Positions 44,354-50,430 of a stretch of DNA of 64,000 bases are shown here, piece after piece; position 1 is the stretch's first letter, and every line of letters begins with the position of its first letter. This DNA comes from Candidatus Bathyarchaeota archaeon (GTDB lineage: Archaea; Thermoproteota; Bathyarchaeia; TCS64): contig JAOZHO010000019.1 in NCBI GenBank assembly GCA_026014875.1, positions 1 to 64,000 on the forward strand, given 5' to 3'. The translations under genes and the position numbers were made by a program. The notes under the pieces are model-generated. The model made no database searches, was not told the DNA's origin, and saw only the letters and a list, made by a program, of their open reading frames with translations.

Positions 44354-44386
44354 CTTATAAGATAACTTGTTAACATGTAAACAAGT
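44354..44386 (+). promoter_or_regulatory. TATA box and operator-like inverted repeat
   Basis: CTTATAA at 44354-44360 is a good TATA box for the plus-strand gene. Immediately downstream, ACTTGTT (44365-44371) and AACAAGT (44380-44386) form a 7-bp inverted repeat with an 8-base spacer. A repressor bound there would lie across the expected transcription start. Confidence 0.65.
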
Positions 44387-44417
44387 AAACATTCTAGCAT
44401 GTGGACGTGTTATCAAG

Positions 44418-44846
44418 GTGCCTCGTAAGACCGTCGCCATCCGTGGGCTCGACACAGATCTGTACCATGAGGTGTTCACCATGGCTAAGAAGGACGGCAA
44501 ACGGGTTAGCGAGGTGATGAACCAGGCCCTCACAGACTTCCTCAATGGGGGCAACCTGAACGGCGCGACCAACGGAAACGGTGGAAAGAACCCCGGCGCA
44601 TTCACCCTAAAGAACGACGGGGAGATCACCCTCTCCAAGAAGGACATCCTGAGCCTCGAAAAAGAGGTGGGCCCCTTCAGGATCGAGACCTCTGGGCGCC
44701 TCACCTTCGAGAAAGACCTCGACAAGAAGACCCTGAAAAGCATCGAGCGGATAGTGGTCCACGACGGGGTCGTCGAGGTCCCTCGGGCCCTTTACCCCCA
44801 GTTCCTTATTAAATCCGATATATACGGTAAGATCGAAAAGTATTGA
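44418..44846 (+). CDS. putative ribbon-helix-helix-type DNA-binding protein
   Basis: 142 residues from GTG 44418. The first 45 residues read like a ribbon-helix-helix: RKTVAIRGLDTDLYHEVFTM, then KRVSEVMNQALTDFLNGG. A glycine/asparagine linker follows, then a second part with ITLSKKDILSLEKEVGPF and DKKTLKSIERIVVHDGV. The inverted repeat upstream would fit autoregulation by a symmetric dimer. Its stop overlaps the TTG start of the DUF99 gene (TTGA), so the pair is one operon. Family otherwise unrecognised. Confidence 0.62.
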   Translation: MPRKTVAIRGLDTDLYHEVFTMAKKDGKRVSEVMNQALTDFLNGGNLNGATNGNGGKNPGAFTLKNDGEITLSKKDILSLEKEVGPFRIETSGRLTFEKDLDKKTLKSIERIVVHDGVVEVPRALYPQFLIKSDIYGKIEKY

Positions 44847-45415
44847 CCCCCGGGGATGGCCCGCTCCGCATTCTAGGAGTCGAGGACGGGAGCTTCGACG
44901 CCTTCAACAGGAAAGCCTCAGGCAGCACCATTCTCTGCGGAGTCCTCATGGAAAGGGACAGGATACTAAAAGTCTGTCACGTGGAGATCCGGGTCGACGG
45001 CCTCGACGCCACCGATAAGCTCCTTTCATTGATGCGGGGGATCGAGGTCGACGCCGTTATCCTCGGGGGAATCACTTTCGGGGGGTTCAATGTCATCGAC
45101 CCACGGGTCATCCATGCCGAAACGGAGGTCCCTGTCATTGTCTACTCGGGGGTCAAGCCCGATAACGATGCGGTGCTGGCGGCCCTCAGGAAGCATTTCC
45201 CCGACTGGGAGAGGAGATGGGAGATAATCGCTGGGCTGGGGGAGATTCATAGCGCCCGGGTCTTCCGGGAAGACCCCGAGATCTACTTCGAGGTAATCGG
45301 ATGCGACCCGGGATGGGCCAAAGGGGTTCTGAAGGACTCTGCGATGATCAGCCGGATCCCGGAGCCTGTCAGGGTGGCGGGGTTGGTGGCCCGGGGGCTC
45401 ACCCAAGCTTATTGA
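44843..45415 (+). CDS. DUF99 family protein
   Basis: 190 residues. Starts ILGVEDGSFD and continues with LCGVLMERDRILKVCHVEI, DAVILGGITFGGFNVID, VPVIVYSGVKPD and a C-terminal RIPEPVRVAGLVARG, the recognisable DUF99 pattern. The fold is related to endonuclease V/RNase H, with the early Asp (VED) as a candidate active-site residue. Likely a nucleic-acid enzyme. TTG start overlapping the upstream stop; its 3' end overlaps DP1 by 17 bases tail to tail. Confidence 0.85.
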   Translation: MTPGDGPLRILGVEDGSFDAFNRKASGSTILCGVLMERDRILKVCHVEIRVDGLDATDKLLSLMRGIEVDAVILGGITFGGFNVIDPRVIHAETEVPVIVYSGVKPDNDAVLAALRKHFPDWERRWEIIAGLGEIHSARVFREDPEIYFEVIGCDPGWAKGVLKDSAMISRIPEPVRVAGLVARGLTQAY

Positions 45416-46898
45416 AATCTATGGGCATCACCACGTGGGTCTGGAGGTCGACGATGGGGGCGACCCCGACCGTGGGTGTGAGGTTGACCCGCTTCTGGAA
45501 GGGGGTCTGATCCTGCCACGAGCCCGAAGCAATCAACGTTGTCCCCTTGTATTTTTTGGTTCCATGGATGTGGATGTGACCCATCTGGAATATGTCGGGG
45601 GTCGAGGAGATCACCAGGCGGTCCTCCCTCTCCGGGGCGATGGGAGTGGAGTTACCATAGGTAGGGGCGACGTGCCTGCAACGGAGAAGGAGCTCCATCC
45701 CCCCCACGGGATTCTGGAATTCGAGACCGGGAACCTGGCTCAATATCTCGTCCAGTGCCTTCCCATGGCTGATGAACGCCTCGACGCCGTGAAGCTGGAG
45801 GCGACTCGGGTTCCCGTAGAGGTGGATCCTGTCGTTCTCGTCCAAGACTTCGGCGTACTCCCGGGAGAGAGGCACTTGGGGGAGGCTCTTCCGGACCGCG
45901 TCGTGGTTGCCCGGGATGACGATGATCTCCACATAGTCGGGGAGCTCCTGGAGGAGCATCCCTGCGACCCTGTACTGCTCCCGGATATCGGTGATCTCGA
46001 GCTCCTTCATCTGGTTGGGGTAGACTCCGATGCCGTCCACGAGGTCCCCGGCGATCACCACGTATTTGACCCGGCCTGCGAGGTTCTTGGACTGCGGGGG
46101 GCCCAGCTCGAGGTTCATCCACCGGATGAAGCGGTCGAAGAGGTCCTTGTTGAAGTGGATGCTTCCGATGTGGGTGTCTGCGAGGAACGCGGCGCATAGG
46201 GGCACCTCGGATCTGTTTGGGGGTTTGCTGGGGATGTCGGGCCAGATGAAGTCTTTGACGACGAGGAGGTCCTGGCGGTACTTCACGGCGTCGACGCAGA
46301 TGACCTGGTCCTGGAGGATGGAGAGTCCTTTCCGGACCACCTCGCTGTCCGTAGCCATCACCGTGATGGAGTCCTCCCGGTCCTCGATGTCCAGGAAGAG
46401 GCGGTGGCCCCGGGACCTCTTCGTGGTGACTATGCCGATGACCTTCATCTTGGCCTTGAGGGGCATCTTCAGGGCATTGTCAATGGAGACTGCGTCCCGG
46501 ACGTCGATCCGTTGGCGGAGGATGCGCTCCACCTTCCTGAAGCGGCTCCTAAAGTATTCCAGATATCCTTGAATGTCCCCCTGGGGCTCCCCCGGAAGAT
46601 TCTCGGGCAGCCGTATCATCGCGTCGTGCTCAGCTGCGAGAGGCTTGATCCGGGGGGTGCGGGAAGCGAAGTTGAGGGGATCGGGGCTGCTCTCCTCCTT
46701 CTCGCAGACGCTCTGGAGGAAGGCCCTGTCTAGAATCGTTATTTCGGGTGAGGCCTGAGAAGCTTCGGCAAGGGCCCCCTGGACACTGTCCCCGAGGCCC
46801 TCCCCGTCCAGAGTCTTGAGGTACTCGAACCCGTCTGCGCTTATCTGGTAACCTGCCTCGATGATCTTTCCGAGGGCCTCCCTCAGGTTCTCAGACAC
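45399..46898 (-). CDS. polB: DNA polymerase D small subunit DP1
   Basis: 499 residues. An N-terminal helical region and an OB-fold (VIGIVTTKRSRGHRLFLDIE) precede a calcineurin-type phosphoesterase domain with FLADTHIGS, VIAGDLVDGIG, VIPGNHDAV, EAFISHGKALD and MGHIHIHGTK. These are the metal ligands of the Mre11-like 3'-5' proofreading nuclease, and all appear intact. Partner of DP2 encoded 5 kb away (51792-55208). Replicative polymerase of most non-crenarchaeal archaea. It is not in an operon with DP2 here. Confidence 0.95.
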   Translation of the reverse strand: MSENLREALGKIIEAGYQISADGFEYLKTLDGEGLGDSVQGALAEASQASPEITILDRAFLQSVCEKEESSPDPLNFASRTPRIKPLAAEHDAMIRLPENLPGEPQGDIQGYLEYFRSRFRKVERILRQRIDVRDAVSIDNALKMPLKAKMKVIGIVTTKRSRGHRLFLDIEDREDSITVMATDSEVVRKGLSILQDQVICVDAVKYRQDLLVVKDFIWPDIPSKPPNRSEVPLCAAFLADTHIGSIHFNKDLFDRFIRWMNLELGPPQSKNLAGRVKYVVIAGDLVDGIGVYPNQMKELEITDIREQYRVAGMLLQELPDYVEIIVIPGNHDAVRKSLPQVPLSREYAEVLDENDRIHLYGNPSRLQLHGVEAFISHGKALDEILSQVPGLEFQNPVGGMELLLRCRHVAPTYGNSTPIAPEREDRLVISSTPDIFQMGHIHIHGTKKYKGTTLIASGSWQDQTPFQKRVNLTPTVGVAPIVDLQTHVVMPIDFNKLG

Positions 46899-47334: not shown

Positions 47335-48030
47335 TCAGAGGTTGATCTCGTTCCGAGCCTGGTGGGTCTTAACGATCTCCACGATCTCTTTCCTGAGGTG
47401 ATATCTGTAGGGCATGCTTCTGGTGTTCCTGTCGATGAAACCCCTGTCGAAGAGCTTCTTGAGGAGCCTCGCGGTGTGCTCCCGGGTCTTCTGGATCTTC
47501 TCCCGTATCTCCGGGACGGATCCCTCCCCCATCTCGTCGATAAGAGTGAGGACATCTAACTCCGTGGGGGTGAGCTGGCTCAGAACATCCCGCTGCTGGA
47601 GGGGGATCGGCGCATCTATGGGGACCGCCTGCACGAGGGGTACGGGCCTCTCAGAGAGCGCCTGGATCTCCTTCCTCATACCCTCGATAGCCTTCTCCGA
47701 GCCCTCGAACCTCTCGCTGAGGAGCTTCCTCTCGTCAACCCCCGACTTGGAGGCCTCGACAGCCATCCTAGAAGCCTCCCACGCCTGAGCAGCCACCCTG
47801 TGAGCGTCAGATGCGTCGCTTTCAAAACCCGATATCATAGCCATGAGTCTTGATATCTGTCTCGCGAATCCGTTGGTTATACCTCTCACGAGGTCTCTCG
47901 ATTCCTCGTATTCTTCCTGGGCCTGGCTGATTTTCTTGTAATAGATGAAAGAGGCTATCGTGGTGACCGCGAAAAGCATCAGCGTTGCGAAGAATAGCTC
48001 CAAAGGATTCACGATCTGTGTCGTTAACAT
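47335..48030 (-). CDS. membrane-anchored winged-helix regulator
   Basis: 231 residues. One N-terminal membrane helix (LELFFATLMLFAVTTIASFI), a long coiled-coil segment rich in Ala, Glu and Arg (about 40-125), then a MarR-like winged helix: LTPTELDVLTLIDEMGEGSV, EIREKIQKTREHTARLLKKL, FDRGFIDRNTRS. The plan is that of a membrane-tethered transcription factor sensing the cell surface. Faces the AT-rich island upstream, so it may act there. Confidence 0.75.
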   Translation of the reverse strand: MLTTQIVNPLELFFATLMLFAVTTIASFIYYKKISQAQEEYEESRDLVRGITNGFARQISRLMAMISGFESDASDAHRVAAQAWEASRMAVEASKSGVDERKLLSERFEGSEKAIEGMRKEIQALSERPVPLVQAVPIDAPIPLQQRDVLSQLTPTELDVLTLIDEMGEGSVPEIREKIQKTREHTARLLKKLFDRGFIDRNTRSMPYRYHLRKEIVEIVKTHQARNEINL

Positions 48031-48943
48031 GCATAGCTCTGAGTGATGGAATATTTGATTGTTTTCGTTCCCAGCAAGTGAAAATAACTCGTAATAATAA
48101 TAAAATAATGAAAAAAGTTATTTTTATTATATGAGAGAACTAACTTCACTAGATTTTTCCGAGTAATATTAGGTTATTTTCATTCATAGAAAATATCTTG
48201 GAAATTTCCTATGTTTAAAGCGATCATACCGTAAGTTTAACCCGTATATTTTTAGTTTACATAATTTAGAAAGTGTTCCGAATATCACATGTAATATGAA
48301 TGTGATGGAGTGTGACATGCTTCACGTTACATGATATCACATCATTCAAACTGAAATCACAGACCTATTACCGATTTTAGTTATGGCTTGGGATATTTAC
48401 AATTATTCGATTAATCCCCGATAATTATATGGTTTTATTGATTTTTAAACAGCTGTCTTAACTTATTATCCTTTATTTTAACCTATTTTATAATTTAAAC
48501 TCTTATTATCTCTTTGTTTAATATTTCACACCTTTTTACTTCAATTTAATTGGTACAACTCAATTAGTTTAAAGAAATTAATAAGAAAATTAATAAAAAT
48601 GGCCCGTGACATCACAGATTTATCACATATAAAATCACGAAATAATATTTGGTAAATATCGAATTTACGACTAAACTCTCACAGGACTAATTACCTAACA
48701 TTAAAGTATACTCTAACCATATAAATGGGTAAATTAATCATATAATCATGTTTAATATTAGATTTTAAAGATATATACGGTCTTAATAAAGAATTAATCA
48801 CATTTTTCTTGTTTATTGTGTATTTAAGGCATTCTTTAAGCTTTAAACTAATACTGTTTCTTCATAAACTTTCAAGTACAGAAAATGGAAAATCTTTATT
48901 TTTTACATCAATAAAAACAATCCATATGTGATTTCTTGTGATA
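48031..48943. other. AT-rich non-coding island with repeated ATCACA/TGTGAT words
   Basis: About 0.9 kb without a credible gene, far richer in A and T than the surrounding DNA. It contains many copies of ATCACA or TGTGAT, for example 48284, 48301, 48356, 48622 and 48797, near-palindromes GTGACATCACA at 48606-48616, GATATCACA at 48333-48341, and the full palindrome at 48937. No ORB-type origin boxes and no orc1/cdc6 gene are visible. Candidate regulatory region or origin. Confidence 0.6.
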
Positions 48944-48948
48944 TCACA
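48937..48948. promoter_or_regulatory. perfect palindrome TGTGATATCACA
   Basis: Twelve-base perfect palindrome, overlapping the stop codon of the 48944-49399 gene, with a further TGTGAT half-site ten bases to its left (48927-48932). Related sites recur across the island and inside nadE (49829-49838 and 49847-49856). Likely bound by a symmetric DNA-binding dimer. Confidence 0.5.
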
Positions 48949-49399
48949 CTTGTTTCAATTGCTTGGGTTCTGCTAAAGAACGTATTCCATTTGCTAATTC
49001 AGCTTCTAATCTTCTAATTCTAGACCGCGACTCGAGACTATCCTGATCCTGCATCAAGGATGAATACTCACTCAACTTTTCGGCCAAATTTTTATACTCC
49101 TCGAAAGGATAGGTGTCGTATATTCCGACATAACTGAGCAGTAATATCGTGTAAATGGACGAGATAATATTCCTTCTGGCTTGAGATAAAGTACGGCTAA
49201 ATGAACCCCTACTGACCTTTTTAGACCGATAAATCGCTTTATTATCATAAGTAATGATATTATCGGACATATTATCTGTATAATAATCTATTAACAGGCT
49301 TTCATATTGTATTTTGGTTAAATTACTATTTTTTAATAAAATAGCCGTTATTTGGTCTTTAAATGAACGATTAACCATATTTTGAAGCTCATTATCCAT
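48944..49399 (-). CDS. hypothetical helical protein, AT-rich gene
   Basis: 151 residues, unrecognised. Predominantly helical and rich in Asn, Ser, Ile and Tyr; IISSIYTILLLSYVGIYDTY could be a membrane or core helix, and the C-terminal part LESRSRIRRLEAELANGIRS looks coiled. The gene is much more AT-rich than its neighbours and lies inside the AT-rich island, which suggests transfer or weak selection on base content. It is divergent from nadE with an operator-like palindrome between them. Confidence 0.55.
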   Translation of the reverse strand: MDNELQNMVNRSFKDQITAILLKNSNLTKIQYESLLIDYYTDNMSDNIITYDNKAIYRSKKVSRGSFSRTLSQARRNIISSIYTILLLSYVGIYDTYPFEEYKNLAEKLSEYSSLMQDQDSLESRSRIRRLEAELANGIRSLAEPKQLKQV

Positions 49400-49450
49400 T
49401 TTTTATACACCTATTTTTTTAACCGATTCAATTACTACATTAAGAGCTCT

Positions 49451-49468
49451 GTATACAAAAATGTATAC
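49451..49468. promoter_or_regulatory. operator-like inverted repeat GTATACA-AAAA-TGTATAC
   Basis: Perfect 7-bp inverted repeat with a 4-base spacer in the 227-base divergent spacer between the AT-rich hypothetical gene and nadE. Size and symmetry fit a transcription-factor site controlling either or both genes. Confidence 0.55.
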
Positions 49469-49626
49469 GCAGAAAACAACCCTTAAAAACATGATTTACA
49501 GACATTAACCACTGTCACTTTCACCCTTTCATACAAAATAATGCCAAATATGTCCTTTTATTAACATTAATTTACAACAACATACACATCAGAACACTTT
49601 TACTTGCTCGAATTCAATGAAAAACC

Positions 49627-50430
49627 ATGTTTAATATCGAGTCTCTCAGCTTGAACACTCTAGAAATCTCTTGTAAAATTACAGAGTTCATCTCAGAAGA
49701 AGTGAGAAAATCTGGCCTAAATGGCGCAATAGTTTCAGTAAGCGGGGGAATAGACTCTGCACTGACTCTTTCCCTCACAGCCAAGGCGCTGGGCTCCGAA
49801 CGGGTACGGGCCGTCACTATGCCTGAGCGTGACATCACGCCGGAGAGTGATATCACGGACGTGATGCGTCTCACAGACCTGTATGATGTAACATGTGACA
49901 TCGTAGAAATCACGCCGACGTTGGAGGCCCTGAGCGAAGCACTCCCACTCTACGATCCGTCTGACCGGCTGGCCACGGGGAACATCAGACCCAGGATCCG
50001 GATGATGGTTTCATACCATTACGCCAACGCCCTTAACATGCTGGTGCTGGGGAGCTCGAACAAGACGGAGTTGCTGACGGGTTACTTCACAAAATACGGG
50101 GACGGAGGCGTTGACCTGCTGCCCCTGGGGGATCTCTACAAGTGCCAGGTGAGGCAACTAGCCTGTTACATGGGTGTCCCGCAGGAGATAATCGATAAGA
50201 CGCCCACTGCGGGGCTCTGGCCGGGGCAGTCCGACGAAGGGGAGTTGGGTGCCTCCTACGATGTCATCGACTTGATCTTGTGGGGTCGTGAGAAGGGGTT
50301 TTCAGCGCAGGATATCGCATCTGGAGTAGATGCGGATATAGGCATCGTGGAGAGCATTCTCACCAGAGTCGAGAGAACCGAGCACAAGAGGCGTCTCCCG
50401 CTACTCTTAAGACTAGGTTCCCTTACCTGA
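49627..50430 (+). CDS. nadE: NAD+ synthetase (ammonia-dependent)
   Basis: 267 residues. ATP-pyrophosphatase P-loop SGGIDSALT at about 39-47, SSNKTELLTGYFTKYGDGG and PLGDLYKCQVRQLA complete the NadE signature. There is no glutaminase domain, so it uses free ammonia. Catalyses the last step of NAD synthesis. An unusual cluster of GTGAYATCAC sites falls inside the coding sequence near residues 67-95 (RDITPESDITD). The TGA overlaps an ATG of the next frame; elf1 follows 30 bases on. Confidence 0.93.
   Translation: MFNIESLSLNTLEISCKITEFISEEVRKSGLNGAIVSVSGGIDSALTLSLTAKALGSERVRAVTMPERDITPESDITDVMRLTDLYDVTCDIVEITPTLEALSEALPLYDPSDRLATGNIRPRIRMMVSYHYANALNMLVLGSSNKTELLTGYFTKYGDGGVDLLPLGDLYKCQVRQLACYMGVPQEIIDKTPTAGLWPGQSDEGELGASYDVIDLILWGREKGFSAQDIASGVDADIGIVESILTRVERTEHKRRLPLLLRLGSLT

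Follow-up and report, generated by a model that had tools for sequence, protein, structure and literature searches.

Palindromic sites arrayed around the stop codon of a small HTH-like ORF and conserved with the replication-origin neighborhood across Bathyarchaeia

The window (the whole 64,000-nucleotide stretch of DNA analyzed here) came from contig C28 of a Candidatus Bathyarchaeota genome of 2,502,386 bases in 51 contigs. It carried the gene block DP1, cupin, wHTH231, small ORF, nadE, Elf1, GGGPS, and DP2, and the corresponding gene order in the class was DP1–Orc1/Cdc6 (Orc1.1 type)–wHTH231–sites–small ORF–(nadE)–Elf1–GGGPS–DP2. The sites were palindromic words with the core GTGA-YR-TCAC, most often TGTGAYRTCACA. 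The features of the window were as follows:

45399-46898, minus strand: DNA polymerase D small subunit DP1, a synteny anchor (named from its sequence and the block, without a family scan)
47335-48030, minus strand: wHTH231, a syntenic partner with a hydrophobic (membrane) helix at its N terminus, a MarR-type winged helix at its C terminus, and a coiled-coil-like region between them
48031-48936: AT-rich intergenic stretch in which both the distal cluster and site B lie; relatives may have hypF in the same interval
48284-48361: distal cluster of half-sites ATCACA/TGTGAT/TGTGAC; relatives have clusters at a similar distance
48331-48340: near-palindrome ATGATATCAC, part of the distal cluster
48606-48615: site B, GTGACATCAC, at a position shared with the closest relative (L047)
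48927-48948: site A, TGTGAT-N4-TGTGATATCACA (TGTGATATCACA at 48937-48948), with the TGA stop of the small ORF within the palindrome; stop-coupled class-wide
48944-49399, minus strand: small ORF of 151 aa, single-copy and near-universal in Bathyarchaeia, predicted to be all-helical and HTH-like
49451-49468: operator-like GTATACAAAAATGTATAC, a second conserved palindrome, which lies upstream of the small ORF
49627-50430, plus strand: nadE (NAD synthase; PF02540, E=3e-74), hosting sites C1 and C2
49829-49838: site C1, GTGACATCAC, within nadE
49847-49856: site C2, GTGATATCAC, within nadE, 18 bp from C1
51723-55208, plus strand: DNA polymerase D large subunit DP2, a synteny anchor (named in the same way as DP1)

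The four words named in the preliminary description were all recovered at its coordinates (48606, 48937, 49829, and 49847); the half-sites it had placed between the palindromes were present too, but they were unevenly spread and clustered at 48284-48361, 48606-48630, and 48927-48948. No full site was found within the small ORF or in the promoter gap between it and nadE in the window. The 48031-48936 spacer had a GC content of ~27%, compared to mostly 55-65% across the window. Near DP1, 44367-44846 encoded a 159-aa protein with a weak Omega_Repress (ribbon-helix-helix) match (E=0.0017, below the Pfam cut-off), and close relatives had an ORF of the same size at the corresponding position.

The sites were counted against expectation in the own genome and across the class, most of the genomes compared being MAGs. 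Exact GTGATATCAC had two copies in the own genome, both at the window locus, while GTGAYRTCAC had eight: four of them lay within 48606-49856 (1.25 kb), making the motif far denser here than elsewhere, and the other four were isolated single sites. The region 48284-49914 contained four exact sites and 10 TGTGAT/ATCACA half-sites, compared to means of 0.0025 and 1.3, respectively, in dinucleotide shuffles, with 0 of 2000 shuffles reaching the observed number in either case. Clustering of the sites at the locus far beyond chance was confirmed, and in the own genome, clustered sites were unique to the small-ORF locus. The 37 Bathyarchaeia loci each harbored at least one site; 104 sites lay within -1700 to +1500 of the small-ORF stop versus four farther out (0.88/kb versus 0.0145/kb, ~60-fold), and the runner-up among 82 palindrome types of the same form occurred six times in these loci. 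GTGAYRTCAC was absent from +0 to +800 of the stop (the small ORF plus its promoter) in 37/37 loci. Rfam searches of six loci matched nothing, and no relevant literature was found on the motif or on a Bathyarchaeia replication origin.

Codon choice was compared among nadE homologues ranging from 90% down to ~48% amino-acid identity to the window nadE, with the expectation taken from the codon use of each locus itself. GT closed the codon preceding Asp (or its aligned Gly) in 17/19 genes at nadE site 1 (2.9 expected, P ~6e-14), and the codon before Asp ended likewise in 13/14 genes at site 2 (1.6 expected, P ~9e-13), these P values not being independent draws since the genes are related. GT was kept although the residue before Asp varied (Arg/Ser/Gly/Cys), which argues for selection at the DNA level, and the Ile/Val codons at these sites also ended in TC above expectation. 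The hypF gene of relatives carried an equivalent site, which encoded I/V-R/C-D-I-T and was written NGT GAY ATC ACA in 11/11 genomes. The sites are selected at the DNA level and conserved at synonymous bases in both nadE and hypF, the site-forming codons of nadE being kept among relatives. The preliminary description had allowed for coincidence, and the coding copies do encode R/S-D-I-T; nevertheless, an origin of the sites from repeated Asp-Ile-Thr codons plus AT-rich sequence was rejected by the codon comparison, the shuffles, and the genome-wide counts alike and has next to no chance of being correct.

The small-ORF stop codon, and not nadE, formed the center of the array, and the strongest site overlapped this stop; the TGA of the small ORF usually lay inside the palindrome in Bathyarchaeia. 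The 20 loci from other Bathyarchaeia families displayed (i) GTGAYRTCAC at the identical stop-codon position in 14 loci and no more than 46 bp away in all 20, (ii) second sites on one side of the stop site, typically at a distance of 100-330 bp, and (iii) third sites ~0.85-1.1 kb to the opposite side. In relatives of the same family or order, the words occurred at fixed offsets from nadE: ~-690 and, within the gene, +202 and/or +220; more of them lay upstream. The sites are real, locus-specific, and conserved class-wide together with the small ORF and the origin block. The hypF gene was located between wHTH231 and the small ORF, at ~-3000 to -690 from nadE, in L049, L053, L057, L063, and other loci, and also in L111 of another family; in these loci hypF carried array sites in its coding sequence. 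Several genera had two upstream sites exactly 582 bp apart because hypF occupied the interval, and a reading of this distance as rigid non-coding spacing was thus ruled out. In L050 (G003:C1, a single-contig genome of the same genus), an N run directly upstream of nadE replaced the small ORF and the upstream sites; this was explained by the assembly gap, probably an assembly join, and not by true absence of the small ORF from G003.

The preliminary description had further proposed a looping or spreading DNA-binding protein, perhaps sensing NAD status. A multi-site binding system was supported by position, by synonymous-base conservation, and by the uniqueness of the cluster in the own genome, but the NAD part was left unsupported, because the array centered on the small-ORF stop, sites persisted without an adjacent nadE, hypF hosted equivalents, and the syntenic partners were replication genes. 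Two sites do lie within nadE of the window, as binding by an NAD-sensing regulator of nadE would have it. In other Bathyarchaeia families, however, nadE was 1-3 kb off or outside the block while the sites were still there, with the third site falling outside nadE, and nadE genes of family f3 had no full sites, yet the ORF-end site was kept. On comparative synteny, NAD-responsive regulation of nadE was rejected, and we regard it as very improbable; nadE is no more than a neighbor.

The small ORF was single-copy and was found in 113/120 good genomes of the class; the relative JADHWM010000008.1 (Black Sea, Candidatus Bathyarchaeota) encoded a protein 89% identical to it. Sequence searches of Pfam, NCBIfam, PHROG, and PDB gave no usable match for this protein, and none of its 21-35 homologues searched matched a ParB family in Pfam, NCBIfam, or PHROG; the small protein thus had no match to a known family. 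Its AlphaFold model (35 homologues) was confident and all-helical (pLDDT 91), and neither the first nor the second AlphaFold model had a fold neighbor in PDB. The stretch LTxxQ..(V/I)S(R/K)G(S/A)(F/Y)xRTLxQA looked HTH-like by eye and Pfam HTH-family matches were very weak only, so the protein is treated here as a putative DNA binder. For the second candidate, wHTH231, almost every orthologue recovered had the hydrophobic helix at its N terminus; wHTH231 had no match in PDB by sequence and was syntenic with orc1 from Bathyarchaeia to putative ammonia-oxidizing archaea.

The lac repressor works by DNA looping between main and auxiliary operators, and a repressor could likewise use the sites as such operators to control the small ORF and wHTH231 through looping. 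Their position on both sides of the gene, the specificity of the cluster for this locus in the own genome, and the location of site B, which was upstream of wHTH231 in most loci of the class, are all compatible with such local autoregulation. Looping autoregulation is nevertheless made less likely by the small-ORF promoter, which had no GTGAYRTCAC in the 37 loci (+0 to +800) and had a separate conserved palindrome of its own, TATACA..TGTATA, versions of which were found upstream of small-ORF homologues at many loci across the class and into putative ammonia-oxidizing archaea. In addition, where hypF intervened, the sites stayed beside the small ORF (in hypF) and not at the start of wHTH231, ~1.8 kb off. 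We consider autoregulation unlikely on this evidence.

The comparison was extended to Orc1/Cdc6 and to the ORBs (Orc1 binding sites; consensus TTCCASTGGAAA..GGGG, PMC4153887). ORBs, exact or with no more than two mismatches, were present on the Orc1 side in 19/20 class loci, and in other families they lay 1-5 kb from the palindromes; the palindromes of these families are not Orc1 sites, since ORBs coexist with them at this distance. The order to which the window belongs differed: the window contained no ORB with up to two mismatches, and no exact ORB was found in 32 genomes of the order. Genes scoring as Orc1.1 (~360-430 bits elsewhere) were missing from these 32 genomes but for one match (G010:C37:506-1588), the remaining Orc1/Cdc6 being of a 180-275-bit type or fragments only. 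The own Orc1/Cdc6, on contig C11, was of the lower-scoring (Orc1.2) type, was not at the locus, and had nothing origin-like among the repeats around it. The sites, the small ORF, and wHTH231 were still found between DP1 and DP2 in this order; with the array kept where Orc1.1 and ORBs were mostly lost, the sites are separable from the canonical Orc1 origin.

In putative ammonia-oxidizing archaea, distant homologues of the small ORF and wHTH231 occupied the interval from orc1 to GGGPS/DP2, the small ORF lying ~2-2.5 kb from orc1; the ORF end carried TGTGATATATCACA in a putative Nitrososphaera-type genome and TCACA half-sites in putative Nitrosopumilus-like genomes. Certain other families within the phylum still had the small ORF next to wHTH231, but orc1 was tens of kb away.

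These losses raise a further reading, in which the array and the AT-rich spacer would be a non-ORB replication origin, with the small-ORF protein or another factor as initiator, that replaced the Orc1.1/ORB origin in the order of the window. Its syntenic place is the same as that of the class origin block, the spacer has 27% GC, multiple ordered sites are accompanied by tandem half-sites, and the 32 genomes of the order have no exact ORB and an Orc1.1-type gene in only one. Arguing in the other direction, other families have ORBs at a distance of 1-5 kb from these same sites, not all genera share the AT-rich spacer (in several, hypF coding sequence fills the interval), the genome retains an Orc1.2-type gene at another location, and GC skew, taken from the single-contig relative G006 (52% sampled), gave no significant origin signal and was uninformative. 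We rate a replacement origin as unlikely, on a par with autoregulation, but keep both as live alternatives.

Our preferred reading, held with evenly balanced confidence, is that a protein encoded at the locus binds the sites and that they form an origin-linked nucleoprotein array of the parS/SegB kind. The words would be recognition sites of a dedicated DNA-binding protein encoded at the same locus and would form a 1-2 kb array around the stop codon of the HTH-like small ORF. We infer that dimers of either the small-ORF protein or membrane-anchored wHTH231 would occupy the sites and would bridge or spread between them, giving one compact nucleoprotein complex; looping or spreading between the sites is plausible. 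Such a complex may mark the origin neighborhood, and perhaps tether it to the membrane, for chromosome partition or organization. Counting against this partition model, neither the small-ORF protein nor wHTH231 matched a known partition family, the ORF end in putative ammonia-oxidizers showed only half-sites or a wider-spaced version, site B often lay upstream of wHTH231, where an operator could be, and GC skew of G006 yielded no significant signal of an origin. No ParA-type gene was recognized in the syntenic block (annotated genes, and PF13614 among the matches listed); PF13614 ATPases were found in 36/36 genomes searched, and a distant partner ATPase is possible.

The proposed array was compared with three known segregation systems and with Orc1/Cdc6-ORB origins. 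The SegB sites of SegAB in Sulfolobales are palindromes clustered round the cognate gene and the origin, mostly in coding sequence (PMC12284271), and the Bathyarchaeia sites too clustered at a candidate binder gene near the origin, partly in genes. They differed from SegAB in four respects: (i) the SegB site is TCTAGA-S-TCTAGA, while the Bathyarchaeia motif is GTGA-YR-TCAC, the two systems having neither sequence nor motif in common; (ii) SegB is a ribbon-helix-helix protein, while the candidates here are HTH-like (all-helical, no PDB match) or membrane winged-helix; (iii) segA adjoins the SegB gene, while no ATPase gene was recognized in the Bathyarchaeia block; and (iv) clustered sites here were confined to one locus. 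With ParB-parS (general knowledge; PMC5120986), the array shared few palindromes near the origin, kept in genes and beside a likely binder gene, but it had another motif, no ParB sequence match, and no ParA gene recognized in the block. AspA of the AspA-ParBA system of plasmid pNOB8 is a small dimeric archaeal DNA-binder of winged-helix type with a palindrome beside its own gene and is able to spread (PMC5120986); its site is longer (23 bp), the system is a plasmid one, and neither candidate protein matched solved structures by sequence. A winged helix is predicted in wHTH231, which had no PDB sequence match. Orc1/Cdc6-ORB origins occupied the same syntenic block in Bathyarchaeia and putative ammonia-oxidizers, but the palindromes were another element, located 1-5 kb away and surviving ORB loss.

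We also propose, with rather less confidence than the array itself, that the locus encodes a previously undescribed system for partitioning or anchoring the chromosome, inherited from the ancestor of Bathyarchaeia and ammonia-oxidizing archaea. It would comprise a single-copy HTH-like protein and a membrane-anchored winged-helix protein at the origin together with the stop-coupled array, and would have been retained in the order of the window after loss of Orc1.1 and ORBs. To our knowledge, origin marking and segregation are unexplained for most archaea outside Sulfolobales. The order of the window resembles a natural experiment that removed most of the canonical origin parts yet spared the palindrome element. 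With a class-wide cis-element and two uncharacterized proteins beside orc1, homologues of which probably occur in cultured ammonia-oxidizers, the question of origin marking becomes testable.
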